Shown here: positions 6,508 to 25,480 of the stretch, piece after piece | Position numbering within the stretch: position 1 is the first letter of the stretch | How the letters are laid out: every line of letters begins with the position of its first letter | Origin: a virus | Reading direction: 5' to 3' (one strand) | DNA length: 25,480 nt | Virus record (IMG/VR): IMGVR_UViG_3300020214_000110 | Location: 1-25,480 of that record | The notes under the pieces: generated by a model | The model's database searches: none | What the model was told of the DNA's origin: nothing | The model's input: only the letters and a program-made list of their open reading frames with translations | Translations under genes and position numbers: made by a program

Positions 6508-7833
6508 TCATCCTGTACCCCCTTTCTTAGTTGTCCCCCTCCGATCTTGTTTTTCTATTGGAGGATTGGAGGAAGAAGAGACCAGCTTGAGGGGGCCTTT
6601 CGATGAGGCTTCTGCGGGAAAGTAGCGGCGGACATCGTCGGAGCCGCGCACGATCTTCGACCAGCCGATCGCCTTGAGCGCCTTGCCCGCCTGGATCTGC
6701 GCGGCTCGGTTCTGGCGCTCCTTCGGCACGTCCACCGCGTTCGTGAGCAGGTCCGTGATCATCACCCCGTTCTTGCGGTAGAGCGCCCGGTTCATGTGCA
6801 GGTACTCGCGGAAGTGCGTCTCCCACGGATCGGACTCCCGACGCTCCTCGGCCTCGGCGGCAGCCGCCGCGAGGAGCTTGTCGTCGCGCAGGTGCCACTT
6901 CTCGTTCGCCCTGTACCGAACGTAGGCTTCGGCCCAGAGTTGGTCGCGCTCCTCGCGCACCATCTTGAGGTCCACCTTGCCGATGGTCACCGGCCAGAAG
7001 CGCCGAGCGCCGGTCGTGTCGTTCAAGTACCCCGAGCCGTTCGGGTTGACCGTCCCGGCGAACACGCACTGCCGCGGGAAGTCGACCGTCGTCTTGCCGT
7101 ACGAGGGGCGATAGCTGTCCTTCACCGATGAGATGAACGCCTTGACGCGCGACAGGTCGACGCCGTTCAACGCATCGAGTTCGCTGAACTCGACGATCCA
7201 CTTTCGCCGGAGCGCCTGGTAGCCGTCCTTGCCGCCGATGTTGAACACCGTGTCGAGGAACCAGTCGTCGCCCGCCAGCGTGCGGAAGAGCGTGCTCTTG
7301 CCGGCGCCTTGCGGACCCTCGAGAATCAGGACGGTATCGACTTGGACGCCGGGGCGCATCGTGCGCGCGACGGCCCCGAGGAAGAAGTTCTTGGTGATCG
7401 CGCGAGTGTAGAGGTTGTCCGGGGCGCCCGCCGCGCGGATGAGCAGATCATCCACGCGCGGCTTCCTGTCCCACTTGACGCTGTTCAAGTAGTCGCGCAC
7501 CGGATGGATCTTCCAGCGCTCCGCGACTAGCTGCACCGCCTCATCGACGACCGAGGAGTAGAACGCGCAACCGTATTCGTGCGTGAGCCACACGGCGGCG
7601 CGCGCCGAGTCGCTCTGCGTCCAGTCGCCGATCTTGTCGTCCTCCGGTTCGAGATCACCGGGCCACGGCGGCGGCTTCTTCTTGACGATCACGCCCGCGA
7701 AGGCGTCGAAGGCGATGACGTTGCGCCACTCTTCTCTGTGCGTGAGGATGGCGACCGCGTTCGCGAGGCATGGCAAGTAGTCCCCCCGCTTGTTTTTGAG
7801 CAAACCCATCTCCCAGGAGGCGGCCTTGGACAT
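6508..7833 (-). CDS. VapE-family P-loop helicase/ATPase
   Basis: This 441-residue protein belongs to the virulence-associated E (VapE, PF05272) superfamily of replication ATPases, which act with primases in phages and phage satellites. Walker A is GPQGAGKST (173-181) and Walker B is KWIVEFSELD (211-220). The diagnostic region GTVNPNGSGYLNDTTGARRFWPV spans about 260-282 with sensor Asn and arginine-finger residues. Upstream lie IHPVRDYLNSVKWD (109-122) and LYTRAITKNFFLGAVAR, also typical. MSKAAS was chosen as start because an AAGGA site precedes it; the 21-residue extension to 7896 is not supported. The partner primase is probably the gene at 11100. Confidence 0.9.
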   Translation of the reverse strand: MSKAASWEMGLLKNKRGDYLPCLANAVAILTHREEWRNVIAFDAFAGVIVKKKPPPWPGDLEPEDDKIGDWTQSDSARAAVWLTHEYGCAFYSSVVDEAVQLVAERWKIHPVRDYLNSVKWDRKPRVDDLLIRAAGAPDNLYTRAITKNFFLGAVARTMRPGVQVDTVLILEGPQGAGKSTLFRTLAGDDWFLDTVFNIGGKDGYQALRRKWIVEFSELDALNGVDLSRVKAFISSVKDSYRPSYGKTTVDFPRQCVFAGTVNPNGSGYLNDTTGARRFWPVTIGKVDLKMVREERDQLWAEAYVRYRANEKWHLRDDKLLAAAAAEAEERRESDPWETHFREYLHMNRALYRKNGVMITDLLTNAVDVPKERQNRAAQIQAGKALKAIGWSKIVRGSDDVRRYFPAEASSKGPLKLVSSSSNPPIEKQDRRGTTKKGGTG

Positions 7834-7894
7834 GCTTTCCTTCCCGGCGCTCCGAGCGCCAGTACGTTCGACGGTGTTGTAGAGTCGGAGGGGC

Positions 7895-7924
7895 AACCTA
7901 GACCCGAGATCGCCCCGCCGTCAA
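7895..7924 (-). promoter_or_regulatory. Predicted promoter for the VapE operon
   Basis: On the minus strand, TTGACG (7919-7924) and TAGGTT (7895-7900) are spaced by 18 bases, giving a start near 7888 and a leader of about 55 bases before the helicase ATG. It lies back-to-back with a plus-strand promoter at 7933-7960, so both may share regulation. The call rests on motif match and position. Confidence 0.6.
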
Positions 7925-11099: not shown

Positions 11100-12275
11100 A
11101 TGCCGAACGACCACGACGAGCCCTTCACTCTGACCCTCTGGCGCAACTTCTCGCGAGGTCGGCGCAGCCGGTACACCTGGCCCGAGTTCACCGCCACCTT
11201 CATCGCCCAGCCCGAGGTCGTACGCGACAAGCACCAAGTCGCCGGCTTCTCCCTCGCGAGCTTCGAGGGGAACCGCCGCATCCTCTCCAGAGTCGAGAAC
11301 GTGCACGCCCTCGTCCTCGACTTCGACCGCGGCGACACGACCATCAAGCAGGCCGCGACGCTGATCCCGGGCACCCGCGGCATCGCCTACACGACGTTCA
11401 GCCACACGCCTGAGCACCCGAAGATGCGCGCCATCTTCCGGCTCTCACGCCCCGTGCTCGCCCACGAGTACGCCCGCATCTGGGCCTGGGCCGAGCCGAG
11501 CATCACGAAGACGGGCCACGTCCTCGATGAATCCGCCCGGGACGCGAGCCGGTTCTGGTTCCTGCCGAGCCACCCGCCCGGCGCCGAGTACATCTGGCGC
11601 GAACTCAACGGGGCGCCCCTCGACGTGGAGCGCGTCCTGGCCGAGGCGCCTCAAGTCTCCCCCCTCTCCCGCCCACTTTCTGGTGGAGGGCTCATTCTCC
11701 CAGAAAGTGGGCGGGAGAGGCGCCTCGTCGACATCGACGGTGCCGAGACGTTCTGGGGGACGGCCTTCGCCTTCGCCGGGATGGCCTTCGAGTCGCTCGA
11801 CGACGGCAAGCTCCCCGTCGTCTGTCCGTGGAGCGGCTCGCACACGAGCGGCTTCGACGGCGATTCCTCGACGGTGATCATGCCTGCGGCGACCGACGGC
11901 GGGTGGGGGCTCTTCCACTGCTCTCACGCGCACTGCGCTCGACGCCAGACGCTCGATCTTCTCGACGTGCTCCCCACGAAGGCGCTCAACGCGGCTCGCG
12001 CGGAGCATGGGCGGGGGCTCCTGCGCGTGAAGGTCGTGAACGGCTGGAAGGAGCAGCTCGACGCTCTCGGGCCGGATGTCCCGGCGCTTGAGCGTTTCGT
12101 TCTGCGGTGCCGTCCGTCCGACGGGGCGATCTTCCCGTTGACGGTCAAGCCGGGGAGCAGGGTGCACCAGTACCTCGACGAACTCTCGCTCAAGGCGCTC
12201 ATCGGGCGGCGGATCGATGTCTCGCTCGAGGGCGGCACGGTCCGTGCGGCCATGCTCGTGCGTGAGGTTGCGTGA
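11100..12275 (+). CDS. Primase of the archaeo-eukaryotic (AEP) type
   Basis: This 391-residue protein resembles phage/plasmid AEP primases. HALVLDFDRGD (69-79) carries the DxD metal motif (D74, D76). IAYTTFSHTPEHPKMRAIFRLSRPV (95-119) and ASRFWFLPSHPP (149-160) are typical of this family, and a downstream CPW..H...FHCSHAHC set (242-279) looks like a zinc site. A good AGGAG precedes the ATG. Primases of this kind pair with VapE or D5 helicases, and one is encoded at 6508-7833. Residues 187-208 between the catalytic core and the zinc region are encoded by an inverted pair of palindromic repeats, an apparent in-frame insertion. Activity is inferred. Confidence 0.75.
   Translation: MPNDHDEPFTLTLWRNFSRGRRSRYTWPEFTATFIAQPEVVRDKHQVAGFSLASFEGNRRILSRVENVHALVLDFDRGDTTIKQAATLIPGTRGIAYTTFSHTPEHPKMRAIFRLSRPVLAHEYARIWAWAEPSITKTGHVLDESARDASRFWFLPSHPPGAEYIWRELNGAPLDVERVLAEAPQVSPLSRPLSGGGLILPESGRERRLVDIDGAETFWGTAFAFAGMAFESLDDGKLPVVCPWSGSHTSGFDGDSSTVIMPAATDGGWGLFHCSHAHCARRQTLDLLDVLPTKALNAARAEHGRGLLRVKVVNGWKEQLDALGPDVPALERFVLRCRPSDGAIFPLTVKPGSRVHQYLDELSLKALIGRRIDVSLEGGTVRAAMLVREVA
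11664..11719. repeat. Inverted pair of palindromic repeats inside the primase gene
   Basis: CTCTCCCGCCCACTTTCTGG (11665-11684) and its exact reverse complement (11700-11719) flank 15 bases, so the insert can form a 20-base perfect stem. Each arm is a copy of the element at 1978-2001 and 25453-25480. It stays in frame and adds a Ser/Arg/Pro/Gly-rich linker (SRPLSGGGLILPESGRER). GAGGCGCCTC occurs on both sides just outside. Confidence 0.85.
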
Positions 12276-12929: not shown

Positions 12930-12946
12930 CGAAAGGAACAAGGAAC

Positions 12947-13150
12947 ATGGCATCGAAGAAGAAGGTTGCGAAGAAGGCTGCGAAGAAGGTCGCCAAGAAG
13001 GTCGCCAAGAAGGTCGCCAAGAAGAAGGCGGCGAAGAAGGCGGAGGCGGAGGCCACTCCGGTGAAGAAGGCGGGTCCGTCTCGCGCGCGCAGCGAGTGCG
13101 GCGTGCGCGGGCACAACCGGCGGAGCCACGAGGGCGGTCGGACTCCATGA
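12947..13150 (+). CDS. Histone H1-like Lys/Ala-rich DNA-binding protein
   Basis: This 67-residue protein opens with repeated KKVAKKAAKKVAKK units (residues 4-32), then AEAEATPVKKAG and a short region with Cys and His (RSECGVRGHNRRSHEGG). Such Lys/Ala repeats are characteristic of bacterial histone H1-like proteins that bind DNA non-specifically. The sequence has an AAGGAAC ribosome-binding site, and its end overlaps the next gene (ATGA). A role in DNA packaging or transcription silencing is inferred from composition. Confidence 0.65.
   Translation: MASKKKVAKKAAKKVAKKVAKKVAKKKAAKKAEAEATPVKKAGPSRARSECGVRGHNRRSHEGGRTP
12959..13018 (+). repeat. 12-base tandem repeat, five units
   Basis: Five successive 12-base units (AAGAAGGTTGCG, AAGAAGGCTGCG, then AAGAAGGTCGCC three times) encode KKVA or KKAA. 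The three identical units suggest expansion by slippage. Copy number is likely to vary between relatives. Confidence 0.85.
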
Positions 13151-13600: not shown

Positions 13601-13773
13601 CGCCCCCCAAGTGCGCAGAACACGAGCTCCGCCCTGGAGAGTTCGGCGACAGCCCCCGGTACGTGCGTGCTCTCGTGGAGAGCCGCACGTGCTGGCGCTG
13701 TCGTCTGCTCGAGGTGCGGGCGCGGATCGTCTGGCGCTGGCGTCTGGAGCTGACGCGGTTCGGGATCTACTAG
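13597..13773 (+). CDS. Small zinc-binding-type protein
   Basis: This 58-residue protein begins in an ATGA overlap. CAEH (6-9) and CWRC (32-35) make a possible four-ligand zinc site. The C-terminus is Arg/Trp-rich (RARIVWRWRLELTRFGIY). It converges on the NUDIX gene, whose stop overlaps this one by four bases. Function unknown. Confidence 0.5.
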   Translation: MTPPKCAEHELRPGEFGDSPRYVRALVESRTCWRCRLLEVRARIVWRWRLELTRFGIY

Positions 13774-14216
13774 CCCGATCCGGGGCGCCAGCTCCGAAGA
13801 AGATCCGCGACGCCCGGGTGAAGCTCGAGCGGCGGGTCGCGCTCGGGATCCCACCACACGTAGTCGTCGTGCTCGTCGTTCAGGACCGGCGCGAACTGGC
13901 GCTCGACCTCGATGACGAACGTCGTGTAGCGAAAGTGCCCCTCGCGGAACACGAACTCGCCCACGATGCGCCGCCGTGGGGGCAGCGGCCCGATCTCCTC
14001 GTGCGCCTCGCGCAGCGCCGACTCGAGCGGGGCCATCGGCAGGCCGCGCTCGTTGACCGGGATGGCGCCCCCCGGGATGCCCCAGGTGCCGGGCTCCATG
14101 ACCCAGGCGGCTCGGAGGAGAAGCAGGATCTTCCGCCCGGCGACGAAGAGCAGCCCCGAGCCCGCATGGCCCCAGCGGCCTCGAACGTGGCCCACGTCCC
14201 GGTAGCGGCTCGGCAC
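13770..14216 (-). CDS. NUDIX hydrolase
   Basis: This 148-residue protein has a recognisable NUDIX box. TWGIPGGAIPVNERG (44-58) is followed by PLESALREAHEEIGPL (63-78), whose REAHEEIG matches the RExxEExG core that binds the catalytic metals. The loop between the glycine and RE is longer than in the canonical Gx5Ex7RE box. NUDIX enzymes hydrolyse nucleoside diphosphates linked to another group, including ADP-ribose, NADH and oxidised dNTPs. It is divergent from a run of three ART-like genes, so ADP-ribose or NAD derivatives are attractive substrates, but specificity cannot be read. The start is GTG. Confidence 0.8.
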   Translation of the reverse strand: MPSRYRDVGHVRGRWGHAGSGLLFVAGRKILLLLRAAWVMEPGTWGIPGGAIPVNERGLPMAPLESALREAHEEIGPLPPRRRIVGEFVFREGHFRYTTFVIEVERQFAPVLNDEHDDYVWWDPERDPPLELHPGVADLLRSWRPGSG

Positions 14217-17303: not shown

Positions 17304-17561
17304 TCAGGGCTGCGAGGTCTTCCGGGGGCCGAACACGTCCTCCCGGTGCTTCACGAGCGCGTCGATGAAGGCGTCGAGCGTTCCAGGCCCCTTGAAGCGC
17401 ATGACGATGACGGCGCCGCCGACCGGGATGTGGAGGTGGACCTGCGTCGGCGGGACCGTGGGCTCCGGTGTCGGGCACCACGAGTAGACCGTGGCGCCTT
17501 CGGGCATCGACTCGTAGTAGTCGGCCGGTGGGATCTTGCCTGTTCGTCGATCGCTGGTCAT
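17304..17561 (-). CDS. Small hypothetical protein
   Basis: This 85-residue protein has a GGAGG Shine-Dalgarno. The N-terminus MTSDRRTGKIPPADYYESM precedes VYSWCPTPEPTVPPTQVHLHIPVGGAVIVMRFKG (beta-rich) and a C-terminal helix TLDAFIDALVKHREDVFG. The start overlaps the preceding stop (ATGA). No family was recognised. Confidence 0.6.
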   Translation of the reverse strand: MTSDRRTGKIPPADYYESMPEGATVYSWCPTPEPTVPPTQVHLHIPVGGAVIVMRFKGPGTLDAFIDALVKHREDVFGPRKTSQP

Positions 17562-17761
17562 GGTCGGCCTCCAATGTTGAGAGCTTTTCGCGCCGCGGCT
17601 CGGTCGAGTCTGTAACCGTGCTTCTCCGCGCGAAGGATGCCTCGACGGACGAGCGCCTGGATCGTTCGCTCGTCGTTCAGCATCACCACGGTCGGACCCG
17701 ACGGCGTGCGCAGCATGTCCCAGATCATCCCGCGCATGGCAGAGGAGAGCGGCCGTTTCAT
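17558..17761 (-). CDS. Small winged-helix-like protein
   Basis: This 67-residue protein reads MKRPLSSAMRGMIWDMLRTP, then NDERTIQALVRRGILRAEKHGYRL. A helix, a second helix (TIQALVRRG) and a short strand pair (ILRAEKHGYRL) are arranged as in a minimal winged helix. It is coupled on both sides by ATGA overlaps. DNA binding is an inference. Confidence 0.5.
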   Translation of the reverse strand: MKRPLSSAMRGMIWDMLRTPSGPTVVMLNDERTIQALVRRGILRAEKHGYRLDRAAARKALNIGGRP

Positions 17762-18516
17762 GTTGCCGCTTTCTTCGCCGCAGTGCGTTCGTAGTACCGG
17801 ACCTTCGCGCGCCACTTCGCGAGCGTGCGGCGCACCGACTGGAGGTTTCGCTCGCACTCGGCGAGCATCTTCGCGGCGTGAGCTGCGCGCCGCTCGACGA
17901 GGGCTGTGGCCTTCTCCGCGCGCGTCGGCTTCGCTTGGGGCGGCCCCGGCGGGAAGAGGTCGATCTCGCCGGCCTCGATCTTCGCCTTGAGCGTGGCCTG
18001 GGCGATGGCGTCCATCCTGTAGGCGACGCACCCCTGGCTTGCGGGCGCGTCGAGAGGGACATCGATCCCCCAGAGTTCCTTGCAAGCTCGGCGGAGGGTG
18101 CGCCGGAACCGCTCGCTGTGGCCCTCTCGAGGCGGCACCGCGAGGTGGCACATCTCGTGGACGAGCAGCTCCAGCACGCGCTCGGGGGTCGCGTCGAGAC
18201 CGGCAGCGATCCGAATCCGTCGCTGGGTAGTCCAAGCGCGCCCGCACGTGCCGTTCGATGTGCGGTGCCCGACCTCCAGGCGGATCTTCCCGAGGTTCCC
18301 GACGAAGGGCGGGAGCTTCCGGTAGGCCGCGAGGGCGCGGTCGAGGTCGACGCCCGCGACGACGTGGCCGAGCTTCCGGCGCTCGGCGGCAGCGCGGCGC
18401 CTGGCCGGCAGAACGACGCAGCGGTAGCAGGCACGCTCTTCGCCGTTGCCCGTGCGGACGAGGGGGAGGTTGCAGTCCGCGCAGCGGGGGGCGGGGGTTT
18501 CGACTACGGTGTCCAT
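17758..18516 (-). CDS. SprT-like zinc metalloprotease
   Basis: This is a 252-residue protein. CADC (12-15) and CYRC (30-33) form an N-terminal zinc ribbon. The catalytic motif LLVHEMCHLAV (117-127) contains HExxH (120-124). EGHSERFRRTLRRACKEL (131-148) supplies the third ligand (H133) and the helix typical of SprT-like domains. Such proteases, related to SPRTN and Wss1, cleave proteins crosslinked to DNA. The C-terminal 70 residues are basic and helical and may bind DNA. The start was chosen at MDTVVETP with a modest GAGAGG site. The gene sits within a coupled operon with a rhomboid protease upstream. Confidence 0.85.
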   Translation of the reverse strand: MDTVVETPAPRCADCNLPLVRTGNGEERACYRCVVLPARRRAAAERRKLGHVVAGVDLDRALAAYRKLPPFVGNLGKIRLEVGHRTSNGTCGRAWTTQRRIRIAAGLDATPERVLELLVHEMCHLAVPPREGHSERFRRTLRRACKELWGIDVPLDAPASQGCVAYRMDAIAQATLKAKIEAGEIDLFPPGPPQAKPTRAEKATALVERRAAHAAKMLAECERNLQSVRRTLAKWRAKVRYYERTAAKKAAT

Positions 18517-18740
18517 ACGGCCCTCTCTTTCTTCTTCGGGTTGTCCTTCTCGACGGGCACCAGATCGAAGAGGGTGCCGACCGGGAACCGAGCCTTGGTT
18601 TCCTCGTCGCACATGAGCACCACGAACGAGTCTCGGTCGTAGCCCTCGGCGCCGATACACAGCCCTTTGGACCCGCGCCAGTCGTGCTGCACGACCACGG
18701 CGCGGAAGGGCTGACCGTCCTTTTGCCTCAACACGCTCAT
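18504..18740 (-). CDS. Small hypothetical protein
   Basis: This 78-residue protein starts in an ATGA overlap with the ribbon-helix-helix gene. It has PFRAVVVQHDWRGSKGLCIG, RDSFVVLMCDEET and FPVGTLFDLVPVE, a compact beta-rich sequence like a small barrel. The stop lies 13 bases inside the SprT-like gene. No family was recognised. Confidence 0.6.
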   Translation of the reverse strand: MSVLRQKDGQPFRAVVVQHDWRGSKGLCIGAEGYDRDSFVVLMCDEETKARFPVGTLFDLVPVEKDNPKKKERAVWTP

Positions 18741-18934
18741 CGCTTCTTCTTCCCGAGGTCCGCCTCGAGTTGCTCCGCGCCCTTGAACGCGGCGAGGCGG
18801 AGCGCCTCCGCCCGCGTGATCTGCATCCCGGGCTCGCTCATCCGCTCGGCGATCTTGTCGAGGCGGGCGAGGAAGGCTTCTGGCAGCCGGATCGCCGTCT
18901 GGACGTTCGCGTCCTTCTTGGGCTTGGCGGTCAC
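18737..18934 (-). CDS. Ribbon-helix-helix DNA-binding protein
   Basis: This 65-residue protein starts at GTG in a GTGA overlap. NVQTAIRLPEAFLARLDKIAER (10-31) provides the beta strand and first helix, and ITRAEALRLAAFKGAEQLE (39-57) the second helix. This is the classic ribbon-helix-helix order. It could regulate the surrounding operon. Both junctions are coupled. Confidence 0.65.
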   Translation of the reverse strand: MTAKPKKDANVQTAIRLPEAFLARLDKIAERMSEPGMQITRAEALRLAAFKGAEQLEADLGKKKR

Positions 18935-19347
18935 AGCGCACCTCCGACGACGATGACCTGGGCCGCCTGGGCGTAGGCGTCCTGCACAGTGCCGCCGGAA
19001 AGGAAGGCGCGCACCTCGTCGTCGCGGTCGAGGAAGGTCACTTCGACCCTGCCGCTCGCACCGAGTTCGGTCACATAGATGCACGTGGGGTTGTCCCGCA
19101 GCCAGCCCGTGAGCGCGTCGAGCGTGCGCTGAGCTGCTGCCTGCTGCTCAGGCTGGATCACCTTGGCGGCCGGCAGGATCGTCACGCCTTGGCGCGCCAG
19201 TCGGAGCACGAGCCGGCAGGCGAGGTCCGTGTAGACCTCCTCCGAGGGCTCCGTCATCGCGCCTTCAGACGTGTCTCTGATCGTGTCGAGGAGGGCGGTA
19301 GCGACCGCCTTTATGGTGTCGTTGATGGTCATGGGTGCAGTGTTCAC
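18931..19347 (-). CDS. Hypothetical protein
   Basis: This 138-residue protein starts at GTG (19347) or at an ATG five codons later. A helical N-terminal half (INDTIKAVATALLDTIRD, CRLVLRLARQGVTILPA) is followed by QQAAAQRTLDALTGWL and a strand pair (CIYVTELG, VEVTFLDR). No family was recognised. The stop forms a GTGA overlap with the ribbon-helix-helix gene. Confidence 0.55.
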   Translation of the reverse strand: MNTAPMTINDTIKAVATALLDTIRDTSEGAMTEPSEEVYTDLACRLVLRLARQGVTILPAAKVIQPEQQAAAQRTLDALTGWLRDNPTCIYVTELGASGRVEVTFLDRDDEVRAFLSGGTVQDAYAQAAQVIVVGGAL

Positions 19348-19359
19348 GGTTCTTGCTTT

Positions 19360-19533
19360 TCAGTCGTTGGGGTCGGGATCAGAGTCTTCGGCCAGCGCTT
19401 CGGAGCGGGCCACGTCGGCGGTACAGCGAGTGCAGAGCACGCACGTCGGGAGCCAGCCGTAGATCCTCACGCGCTTCCCGCAGACGGCGCACGGGTAGGT
19501 GCCGATAAACTCGGGGTTGCGGATGTGGCTCAC
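19360..19533 (-). CDS. Small zinc-ribbon protein
   Basis: This 57-residue protein starts at GTG in a GTGA overlap. CAVCGKR and CVLCTRC form a two-knuckle zinc ribbon (C19, C22, C35, C38 approximately). The C-terminus is acidic (ALAEDSDPDPND). Longer ORFs in this frame mirror the neighbour on the same strand. Function unknown. Confidence 0.55.
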   Translation of the reverse strand: MSHIRNPEFIGTYPCAVCGKRVRIYGWLPTCVLCTRCTADVARSEALAEDSDPDPND

Positions 19534-19904
19534 GAGGCCCTCTGAGCGGCGCGCGCCTGCCGGAGCAACGAGCGCATGGCCGGGGTGGGCCTCCGGGCGA
19601 CCTCGTGCTCCAACACGGCGATCACTTGGTCGAAGGACAGGCTCAGCGCGGACCACGACGAGGCGCGGCGACGGGTGACCTCGTCCGCGATCCAGCCCCC
19701 GACGATCCCGACCGTGAGGCTCCCGGCCGCGAGGCGCGCGCGGGCCTCCGTCTGAACGTCCTCTCCGATGGCGCTCGCCGCGAGGCGCTCGGCCACGCGG
19801 AGCGGGTCTTCGGCGGCCCCTGCCAAGGCGGCAAAGTGGCGGGCCGAGTACCCGGAGCGCCCTTGGCGCCGGACCGTCGGCCATGCCTCCAAGGGGGTCT
19901 TCAT
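19530..19904 (-). CDS. Hypothetical protein, possibly soluble partner of the rhomboid gene
   Basis: This 124-residue protein starts in an ATGA overlap with the rhomboid stop. The sequence has helical stretches (PLRVAERLAASAIGEDVQTE), a short hydrophobic patch GSLTVGIVGGWIADEV (about 66-81) and a C-terminal helix FDQVIAVLEHEVARRP. The patch might be a marginal membrane segment. No family was recognised. Any partnership with the rhomboid protease is inferred from gene coupling. Confidence 0.55.
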   Translation of the reverse strand: MKTPLEAWPTVRRQGRSGYSARHFAALAGAAEDPLRVAERLAASAIGEDVQTEARARLAAGSLTVGIVGGWIADEVTRRRASSWSALSLSFDQVIAVLEHEVARRPTPAMRSLLRQARAAQRAS

Positions 19905-20434
19905 GCGGCCTCCAAGGCTTCGCTGCCGCTCGCCCGGAGGAGCCCCGCGACGAGAACCCCGGCGGCGAGGCCCCCAAGGTGGCATCCGAAGCTGACGTTG
20001 CCCGCGCCCCCGGCGACCGCGTGCCAGACCTCGACCCCCCCGAAGGCGAGGGCGAACCCCAGCAGGCGGGGGCGGACGGCCGCCGCCACGGCCAGAACCC
20101 CGAAGACGGCCCCGGACGCCCCCACGAGGGGGAGGGTCGAGCCCGGGTCTACGACGACGTGGAGGAGACCCCCGGCCGCCCCGGCGACCCCGTAGAGGGC
20201 CAGGAGCCCCAGGCCCCCGAGGGCGCCCTCGACGACGGCCCCGAAGACGGCCAGGAAGAGCATGTTCCCGAGGAGGTGGAGGGGGGTCTGGGGGTCGTGG
20301 AGGAAGGTGTAAGAGAGGAGCCCCTCGAGCCCCTGGGCCGGGGTGAGGCCGTGGGCGACGCAGAACGCCTGGCCCGAGCCGAGCTCTACGAGGTAGACGA
20401 GGACGTTGAGGGCAACGAGGAGGAAGGTCATCAC
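19901..20434 (-). CDS. Rhomboid-family intramembrane serine protease
   Basis: This 177-residue membrane protein has about six hydrophobic segments. YTFLHDPQTPLHLLGNMLFL (42-61) holds the H53 and N57 motif. The catalytic site is GASG (105-108, S107) at the start of a helix, and the second residue of the dyad is H152 in CHLGGLAAG. These are the key features of rhomboid proteases, which cleave substrates inside the membrane. The length is short but adequate for the six-helix core. It heads the minus-strand operon. The start is GTG or the ATG right after it, and no Shine-Dalgarno is visible. The substrate is unknown. Confidence 0.9.
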   Translation of the reverse strand: MMTFLLVALNVLVYLVELGSGQAFCVAHGLTPAQGLEGLLSYTFLHDPQTPLHLLGNMLFLAVFGAVVEGALGGLGLLALYGVAGAAGGLLHVVVDPGSTLPLVGASGAVFGVLAVAAAVRPRLLGFALAFGGVEVWHAVAGGAGNVSFGCHLGGLAAGVLVAGLLRASGSEALEAA

Positions 20435-20498
20435 GGGAGGACAGACGGGAGCCTAGCATGGAGTATTCAACGGGGTCCAGAAAAGATACGTTGGGGGT

Positions 20499-20527
20499 CA
20501 GTGAATACCAGCGGGGTCCGCCCCGTC
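20499..20527 (+). repeat. Copy 1 of a 29-base hairpin repeat
   Basis: CAGTGAATACC, a two-base variable spot, then CGGGGTCCGCCCCGTC. The CGGGG/CCCCG arms form a hairpin with a 4-base loop. It ends 9 bases before the ATG at 20537. A related half (GTATTCAACGGGGTCC) lies at 20463-20478. Copy 2 is at 20963-20991. Confidence 0.75.
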
Positions 20528-20536
20528 GGAGCGTAT

Positions 20537-20962
20537 ATGGCACAGAAGACCGCCCCCAAGGCCCCCCGGATCATCAACCAGCACGAGTACATCAGCATCG
20601 ACTTCGGCAACGGCCGGAGGCTGACCGCCTCGTTCAGCGGGGCCAAGGCGGCCGGGGCCATCCCGCCCCACGTGTGGAAGGCGTGGCTCGCGATGATCGA
20701 CTCCCCGACCGCCCCGGGGCCGAACGCCTTCCTCGTCAAGATCGAGGCGTTCGCGGCCTCCATCGGCACCCTGTGGCCCGAGTGGAACGTCCCGCCGCGG
20801 GAGTTCAAGGTGGGCGAGACGGTCAAGTTCGACTTCGGCCCCAAGCGGGGCGGGACCCGGAGCGGCAAGATCGAGAAGAAGTCGCGCACGTCCTACGTCG
20901 TCCGCTTCGACAGTGGGCTGATCAGCATCTCCGGCGACATGCTTGCCGAGCAGAACGGTTGA
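20537..20962 (+). CDS. Hypothetical protein with a C-terminal SH3-like segment
   Basis: This is a 141-residue protein. The N-terminal part contains HEYISIDFGNGRRLTASFSG and IPPHVWKAWLAMID, and the C-terminal part FKVGETVKFDFGPKRGGTRSG, KIEKKSRTSYVVRFDSG. The second segment has the VGxxVxF...GxIxxxxxxxYVV pattern of small KOW/SH3-like barrels. There is no Shine-Dalgarno; the hairpin repeat is directly upstream. Function unknown. Confidence 0.65.
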   Translation: MAQKTAPKAPRIINQHEYISIDFGNGRRLTASFSGAKAAGAIPPHVWKAWLAMIDSPTAPGPNAFLVKIEAFAASIGTLWPEWNVPPREFKVGETVKFDFGPKRGGTRSGKIEKKSRTSYVVRFDSGLISISGDMLAEQNG

Positions 20963-23764: not shown

Positions 23765-24157
23765 ATGCCCAACTACAAGAGCTACAAGATCACGATCAGG
23801 GGCGCCGTGCGCGTCCTGCTGCCCGAAGGGCGCGTCGCGGATCAGGCCGCCACGCCGGGGGCCCTCCGCACACGGCTCAACGACGCCGCCAACTGGTGGT
23901 CGGACGGGCGCCGAAACCTCTCCGTCGAGCAGCTCCAGGCAGCGGCCGAGGCGATCGTGCGGAACGCCGTCGAGCGGCTAGTCGACGACCACCTCCGCGA
24001 TGGCGACTTCTGGGCGGCGCTCCAGATGGACAGCCGGGACGCCCACGACAAGCTCGACGACCACGTCGGGCTCGCGATGGCGCGCGTGTCGGTATGCGAG
24101 ACCAACGTGGACGACGAGCACACGCTCAAGTTCGAGATCGAGGAGGAAACAACATGA
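23765..24157 (+). CDS. Hypothetical protein
   Basis: This 130-residue protein starts MPNYKSYKITIRGAVRVLLPEG. Beta-rich ends (YKITIRG; LKFEIEEET) flank helical segments with LSVEQLQAAAEAIVRNAVERLVDD. The C-terminal glutamates overlap the next gene's Shine-Dalgarno and start. It directly precedes the nucleotidyltransferase-like gene, so it could be a partner, but nothing in the sequence proves this. Confidence 0.6.
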   Translation: MPNYKSYKITIRGAVRVLLPEGRVADQAATPGALRTRLNDAANWWSDGRRNLSVEQLQAAAEAIVRNAVERLVDDHLRDGDFWAALQMDSRDAHDKLDDHVGLAMARVSVCETNVDDEHTLKFEIEEETT

Positions 24158-24696
24158 GAACCAGAGAACCGATCGGCGGCAGGCTGCCGTCCCACGATGA
24201 GCTGATGGACGCGGCGGCAGCGGTCGCCCAGACCGCCAACGGCGGAGAGGTCGCGCTTGCCGGCGGGCTCGCCATGCAGGTCTGGGGCTCCCCGCGCCTG
24301 ACCGGCGACCTAGACGTCGTCGCGAACTCCGGCCTGGGCTACCAGGGGCCAGAGTTGAGCTTCGGCGGCGTGCGTACGCACGAGCGGGGCATCGATCTCG
24401 ACGTGATCGTCCGCGACGACGAGTGGCAAGGGCTGTACGAGGAAGCGCTCACCGAGGCCGTCAACGTGCGCGGCGTGCCGATGCCGGTCATCACGCCCGA
24501 GTACCTCGCGGCGATGAAGATGGTCGCCGGGCGAACCAAGGACGAGGGCGACGTGCGCTATCTGGTCCTGATGGAAGGCTTCGACCGCAAGAAGGCGGAG
24601 ACCATCGTGCGGCGGCACCTCGGCCCGTACGCGGTCAAGGAGTTCCGCAGCCTCATCGACGAGGCCGCCTGGCGCAGGTCCCGCGGCGACGAGTAG
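24154..24696 (+). CDS. AbiEii-like nucleotidyltransferase
   Basis: This is a 180-residue protein. ALAGGLAMQVWGSPRLTGDLDVV (34-56) contains the GG...TxDLD signature of the DNA polymerase beta-like nucleotidyltransferases (GG 37-38, D52 and D54). IDLDVIV (80-86) supplies the third acidic residue. ITPEYLAAMKMVAGRTKDEGDVRYLV (113-138) matches the C-terminal motif of AbiEii/DUF6036 proteins, in which KxxxxxxKDxxD contacts the nucleotide. Such proteins include toxins of AbiE-type systems and adenylylating enzymes. AGGAGG precedes the ATG. No recognised antitoxin is adjacent. Confidence 0.75.
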   Translation: MRTREPIGGRLPSHDELMDAAAAVAQTANGGEVALAGGLAMQVWGSPRLTGDLDVVANSGLGYQGPELSFGGVRTHERGIDLDVIVRDDEWQGLYEEALTEAVNVRGVPMPVITPEYLAAMKMVAGRTKDEGDVRYLVLMEGFDRKKAETIVRRHLGPYAVKEFRSLIDEAAWRRSRGDE

Positions 24697-25452: not shown

Positions 25453-25480
25453 CCCCCTCCCGCCCACTTTCTGGTGGGGG
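25453..25480 (+). repeat. Copy of the dispersed palindromic repeat at the window end
   Basis: CCTCCCGCCCACTTTCTGGT is flanked by C and G runs and continues into GGGGG at the window edge. It directly follows the stop of the preceding gene. The CCCAC/GTGGG arms form the same hairpin as the other copies. It may extend past the window. Confidence 0.75.

Follow-up and report, generated by a model that had tools for sequence, protein, structure and literature searches.

What would a virus do with a rhomboid protease? The question arose from a 25,480-base IMG/VR virus record, the whole of which is referred to here as the window, in which a 177-aa open reading frame with a GTG start (19901..20434, minus strand) encodes a rhomboid intramembrane serine protease. 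A sequence-only reading of the window had suggested that such an enzyme could cut a host membrane protein during infection, process a membrane protein of the phage or relieve host defence, and the second of these options now appears to gain indirect support from a set of tagged viral proteins that are co-distributed with the rhomboid. The finding of a viral rhomboid is in itself no novelty, since other viral rhomboids share the fold, among them BFVD models for Siphoviridae sp. ctLqe90, AaV and Yasminevirus, at 14-23% identity, and proteins of the uncultured phages LR756502 and LR745206 (0.63-0.64 Mb). Other rhomboids turn up in only a handful of known phages. No paper on a phage-encoded rhomboid was found in the literature searched, and a review from 2025 that covers the rhomboid superfamily (PMC12615303) does not use the words virus, viral or phage. 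What appears to be new is a conserved clade of phage rhomboids with co-distributed tagged proteins, in genomes that also give named candidate substrates and a predicted scissile bond.

The Rhomboid and Its Active Site

The product of 19901-20434 is a rhomboid protease (PF01694, MEROPS S54) by profile, active-site residues and fold. It matched the Pfam Rhomboid profile with an E value of 2.9e-17 (63.6 bits against a cut-off of 22.6), and it had a sequence-level match to H. influenzae GlpG in the PDB (6.8e-06). Numbering by script confirmed H46, H53, N57, S107 and H152 in the window protein, with S107 and H152 as the dyad and H53 and N57 as the oxyanion motif (HxxxN, in TM2). Across 66 aligned rhomboids from phages and bacteria, H46, H53, N57, E69, G105, S107 and G108 were invariant and H152 was kept in at least 90% of the sequences, so that the earlier statement that dyad and motif are intact was borne out; the catalytic Ser (GxSG) and the His of the last core helix were found in all 17 aligned phage copies. 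The AF2 model of the window protein has six helices (pLDDT 94.2, pTM 0.90), and Foldseek matched it to the GlpG structures of E. coli and H. influenzae with TM-scores of 0.62-0.77 and a probability of 1.00. Judged by the intact active site and the GlpG fold of the model, the phage enzyme is probably catalytically competent, as had been supposed, in a minimal six-helix form. The phage rhomboid has the same six-helix fold, GxSG serine, TM6 histidine and HxxxN motif as GlpG, but their identity is only about 20%, the phage protein has no N-terminal domain and it belongs to a separate, phage-only clade. Scored with the GlpG family model, the close relative from contig G012 falls short (12.8 bits, against 250) and the window protein gives no match.

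Genes were called with a simple home-made script, followed by homology-based correction. At this locus the script preferred an antisense frame (19883-20962, plus strand). That frame was rejected, as both protein conservation and third-position changes back the rhomboid frame: compared with those of its nearest relative, the rhomboid codons of the window differ at positions 1, 2 and 3 in 30, 16 and 40 cases, position 3 being the commonest. The closest rhomboid, that of contig G001, has 81% identity. The pN/pS ratio of the closest phage pairs, 0.32-0.48, shows purifying selection on the rhomboid.

The Operon and Its Surroundings

The rhomboid is the first gene of a nine-gene, mostly overlapping operon, all of it on the minus strand, and its stop shares bases with the start of the next gene (ATGA at 19901-19904). 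The junctions from there down to 17304 are mostly 4-nt overlaps, with one 13-nt overlap and one short gap before the gene at 18931. The second gene (19530..19904, 124 aa) is without a Pfam match, and the third (19360..19533, 57 aa) has a zinc-ribbon-like CxxC...CxxC sequence, with all Pfam families below cut-off. The fourth (18931..19347), a member of cluster 5, whose soluble proteins are 133-138 aa long, accompanies the rhomboid more constantly than any other gene, being found in 17 of 21 rhomboid contigs and usually within about 1 kb of it. The fifth (18737..18934, 65 aa; cluster 12), which many relatives also keep close to the rhomboid, is ribbon-helix-helix-like (RHH_1 at 14.6 bits, under the cut-off). 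There follow genes for proteins of 78 aa (18504..18740), 252 aa (17758..18516), 67 aa (17558..17761) and 85 aa (17304..17561), of which the 252-aa product is a SprT-like metalloprotease with the sequence HEMCH (PF10263, 27.6 bits). The soluble cluster 5 protein is a possible functional partner of the rhomboid.

The sequence-only reading had described the rhomboid as translationally coupled both to small phage-type genes and to the SprT-type protease. The chain of overlaps agrees with the first half of that description, but the SprT link is weak: the SprT-like gene lies six genes downstream in the window and was found, with its own profile, in 9 of the 21 rhomboid-bearing contigs, and SprT as an obligatory partner was rejected since most relatives have no such gene. 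The phage-like context was upheld, the window being a virus record with genes for a VapE-type helicase, a phage exonuclease, an AAA_24 ATPase and HNH proteins.

Upstream of the operon, a promoter-like element, GAATA-N16-CGTCT, was located by regular expression (20443..20468, minus strand) and ends 9 nt ahead of the rhomboid start. The same element, with 0 mismatches, occurs on the plus strand (20503..20528) before a divergent gene for a 141-aa protein (20538..20962), whose start lies downstream of it. The window holds 3 occurrences where 0.3 would be expected, each no more than 32 nt away from the start of a gene. As a phage-wide promoter the element was rejected; it is not enriched in most long relatives, and so it is a local feature of the window only.

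Several further features of the window may be recorded here. A 22-24 nt repeat with a hairpin core, CCACCAGAAAGTGGGCGGGAGG, is present in four copies with 0-3 mismatches (1980-2001, 11665-11686, 11697-11718 and 25456-25477), two of which fall within the gene at 11100-12275. It was found neither in the relatives, nor by exact search of IMG/VR, nor in 379 genomes of one phylum, and its use as a host marker was rejected for want of a match in those viral contigs and genomes. A plus-strand gene at 24154-24696 encodes an AbiEii-type nucleotidyltransferase-like protein (23.2 bits, barely over the Pfam cut-off) with 86% identity to a G001 protein; a small gene has, at 12944-13052, 12-nt tandem repeats that code for a Lys/Ala-rich, histone-tail-like stretch; and a NUDIX hydrolase gene (13770-14216, minus strand; phrog_1198, 2.7e-16) lies on the opposite strand inside a run of plus-strand genes.

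A Phage Lineage with Its Own Rhomboid

Relatives of the window, which are metagenomic contigs and mostly incomplete, were recovered through rhomboid profiles and through homology to its VapE-type replication helicase (6508..7896, minus strand; PF05272, 1.8e-75; phrog_1313, 8.8e-103). The rhomboid is present in the window and in 20 other IMG/VR contigs, one copy in each; two of these contigs, G013 and G014, are near-identical over their shared part. Six rhomboid contigs of 67-116 kb, each ending in direct terminal repeats (87-127 bases), are apparently complete circular genomes. A conserved block of structural-like genes, made up of clusters 32, 42-54 and others, includes proteins without a Pfam or PHROG match, and its most conserved member, the capsid-like cluster 49 (alignment A2), was recovered from 26 contigs, the 6 circular ones among which have exactly one rhomboid each. 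Megablast of the window against INPHARED gave no near-identical phage relative, and tblastn for a rhomboid of this kind gave no match in 50,697 phage records, in keeping with the earlier remark that rhomboids are rare in mobile genomes.

A comparison with host rhomboids had been proposed as a way of telling a recent capture from a phage lineage, and its outcome favours the latter. A quick tree search compared 17 phage copies with 55 bacterial rhomboids, which had been taken from the closest hits among genomes; all 17 phage copies fell on one side of a branch with an SH-aLRT support of 100 and a stem length of 1.1; the related viral contigs L046-L048 lie outside this clade. Rhomboid distances correlate moderately with those of the capsid-like gene (Mantel rho 0.54, p 0.02, n 11), and the 88-kb contig G041 has the cluster 5 gene and lacks the rhomboid. 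The phage-only clade, the six circular genomes and the correlation of distances together indicate that the rhomboid is old and mostly vertically kept, but not universal. That it is a recently captured host gene carried as passive cargo is extremely unlikely: bacterial rhomboids are indeed widespread (14/14 control genomes), but the deep phage-only clade, the presence of the gene in all six complete genomes, its constant companions and the purifying selection on it all speak against capture. Ordinary chromosomal DNA, with a gene order conserved across bacteria, is likewise ruled out for the window. By these comparisons the rhomboid has long been part of a lineage of dsDNA phages with large circular genomes, in which it is held under purifying selection and at a conserved operon position.

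Candidate Substrates with a C-Terminal STG Tag

All observations on substrates come from the relatives, the window being without the structural block. A membrane-protein scan of rhomboid-positive genomes brought out several structural-block proteins with four residues in common, followed by a C-terminal helix and a basic tail. Their C-terminus is tripartite, with K[KG]-[LIM]STG-A[IMV] leading into a Gly/Ala-rich transmembrane helix and then a K/R-rich tail. Each virus has 1-3 such proteins, whose ectodomains are of peptidoglycan-binding/LysM and other types, and the two main ectodomain groups have no likeness outside the tag. A scan of the capsid-bearing contigs for [LIMVF]STG with helix and basic tail gave 36 matches, against 0-4 for thirteen permuted or similar control triplets. 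Among 22 tags (families B and C, from 11 rhomboid-positive viruses) the S and the T are without exception and the G is present in 21; P4 is L or I in all 22, P1' is A in 20 and P2' is I, M or L in 21.

According to work on AarA, GlpG and YqgP, diverse rhomboids require a small P1, Gly included, and hydrophobic, preferably large, residues at P4 and P2' (PMC2941825), and [LI]STG↓A[IM], where the arrow marks the predicted scissile bond, fits that published recognition motif. The main difficulty is topological, because most STG proteins have no obvious N-terminal signal peptide (by hydropathy only; many start with a LysM-like domain), which makes it hard to account for an ectodomain on the outer side of the membrane, the side on which rhomboids cut. 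The topology cues conflict, since the basic tail points to an N-out orientation and the missing signal peptide to N-in.

Co-Distribution of Rhomboid and Tag

The distribution of the two features was compared after removal of same-virus fragments, namely G032 (of G018), G029 (which overlaps G030) and G034 and G036 (both of G040). STG tags were found in all 11 distinct rhomboid-positive viruses that have the structural block, and in the structural region of none of the five rhomboid-negative contigs of at least 80 kb (G035, G037, G038, G040 and G041, all linear), the sole pattern match in G035 being unlike the STG tag in sequence and excluded by eye. Homologues of the tagged proteins in G041, G035 and G026 have ectodomains of 43-59% identity and retain both the helix and the basic tail, but they no longer carry an exact STG, reading instead ILTAK, ISPGV, LSTPA, LSTVA or IGTGT; two of these forms from rhomboid-negative viruses, ILTA↓KM and ISPG↓VM, are still compatible with a loose rhomboid motif. 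In 12 more distant contigs, fetched once the pattern was set, there was neither a rhomboid (0/12) nor an STG tag (0/12), though most of them still encode proteins that end in a helix and a basic tail. The exceptions to the pairing are G031, which has tags and no rhomboid, and the 38 kb fragment G039. Truncation of the contig may explain G031, as it ends inside cluster 2, a gene that tends to lie no more than about 8 kb from the rhomboid. Fisher's test over all 24 contigs gave p = 6e-4; phylogenetically independent pairs number 1-2 in the same direction and 0 in the opposite one, which is not significant. With so few independent contrasts, we treat the pairing as a supported hypothesis rather than as a result.

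A Possible Role for the Rhomboid

The reading we tentatively favour, and which may quite possibly be right, is that the phage rhomboid cleaves the virus's own C-terminally membrane-anchored STG proteins, making a viral pair of protease and tag. The rhomboid, produced from an early-type operon, would sit in the host inner membrane, and the STG proteins, produced later, would insert into that membrane through their C-terminal helix; the rhomboid would then cut the G/A bond of STG↓A on the membrane's outer face and so free peptidoglycan-binding or other ectodomains for virion maturation, entry or release. The virus would thus supply both protease and tag, and the pair would work like rhombosortase and the GlyGly-CTERM proteins. 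In a wider form, which is conceivable and put forward with due reserve, the rhomboid and the STG-tagged, envelope-interacting proteins would co-evolve as a virus-encoded sorting and processing system, the tag being cut in maturation or entry, in a lineage of large phages, possibly non-tailed and membrane-containing, that has no isolate among its members. If true, rhomboids would gain a direct part in a viral life cycle, and the sorting logic of motif, helix and basic tail (LPXTG, PEP-CTERM, GlyGly-CTERM) would reach viruses.

Given the early-type operon, the strongest rival reading is an early protease directed at the host, which would cut one or more inner-membrane proteins (a receptor, defence effector or regulator) and leave STG as an unrelated virion anchor. 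It has the gene neighbourhood in its favour, as the rhomboid heads a small-gene operon of early type with a ribbon-helix-helix-like gene, cluster 5 and a divergent promoter-like element, and in complete genomes it lies in this early-type region, far from the structural block and the tagged genes. The phage clade also diverges rapidly, and bacterial rhomboids cut membrane proteins of their own cells (YqgP/MgtE, AarA/TatA; PMC7231995). We regard host-directed cleavage, the purpose of which would be cell takeover, a block to superinfection or the disarming of defence, as a serious rival but as somewhat less likely than the favoured reading: a candidate host target is lacking, the only specific evidence is that neighbourhood, and the confinement of a strict STG to rhomboid-bearing viruses is left unexplained. 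About as likely as host-directed cleavage is that STG serves another enzyme or virion assembly, with the rhomboid co-occurring through a common sub-lineage and having its target elsewhere. Phylogenetic non-independence, with its few independent contrasts, would allow for this, and the tag has an LPXTG-like look, its best known sorting-signal model being NPXTG (15.6 bits against a cut-off of 23.5). A sortase (PF04203), however, was found in none of the 11 rhomboid-positive records and was rejected as the enzyme for the tag, and rhomboid and STG are both missing at no fewer than three separate places in the tree of the capsid-like gene (G041; G035 with G026; the G037/G040 group). Membrane quality control, in which the rhomboid would degrade orphan or surplus viral or host membrane proteins during assembly, perhaps as an adaptor, is a documented function of bacterial rhomboids (PMC7231995) and would suit viruses that encode many small membrane proteins, but it is improbable here: a motif as strict as STG speaks for an enzyme that recognises a particular sequence and against general clearance, and the phage rhomboid is without an extra domain of the YqgP type.

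Among known systems, the predicted pair of phage rhomboid and STG proteins resembles rhombosortase and GlyGly-CTERM (PMC3237569; VesB/RssP, PMC11389362), where a small rhomboid likewise stands in a many-to-one relation to proteins with a motif, a helix and a basic tail. The many-to-one co-distribution seen there recurs in the phage pair (11/11 positive viruses, 0/5 long negative contigs, 0/12 distant ones), with limited phylogenetic independence. Membership of the phage enzyme in rhombosortase was rejected, as TIGR03902 (cut-off 84 bits) gave no match for the window protein and 14.6 bits for that of G012. The GlyGly-CTERM tag is SGGS-like as against [LIM]STG in the phages, the GlyGly-CTERM model did not match the tagged proteins, and rhombosortase targets have N-terminal signal peptides, unlike most of the phage STG proteins. 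Both halves of the phage pair are viral, and its cleavage is predicted. A further likeness is to AarA and its substrate TatA in Providencia stuartii. TatA is cleaved at IATA↓AF, a site that resembles [LI]STG↓A[IM] at P4, P1 and P2'; there, enzyme and substrate both belong to the host, and the motif is near the TatA N-terminus.

The Kind of Virus

Contigs G012 (L141-L146), G014, G015, G017, G018 and G027, with about 20 others, form a phage lineage of 67-120 kb without an isolate relative. The capsid-like gene was not found in 8 genomes, in 379 genomes of one phylum (Myxococcota, from its centre genome) or in phage and plasmid collections. Clusters 49 (capsid-like), 50 and 51 have no Pfam or PHROG match; structure prediction for cluster 49 was poor (pLDDT 29), and a search of the PDB with the profiles of clusters 50 and 51 gave nothing convincing. 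Terminase_6N was found in 0 of 8 genomes, and portal and tail families were not among the 25 most-matched families listed; one transglycosylase-like protein matched a baseplate-hub family. Some genomes have a HerA-type ATPase (DUF87, 30.8 bits), and the best PHROG for the HerA-like ATPase of G012 was "terminase large subunit" (3.6e-20). These are possibly large non-tailed, membrane-containing phages. G012 also encodes a sigma factor of its own, Thy1, a dCMP deaminase, a uracil-DNA-glycosylase-like domain and a protein with an ice-binding-like domain (PF11999, 7.5e-45).
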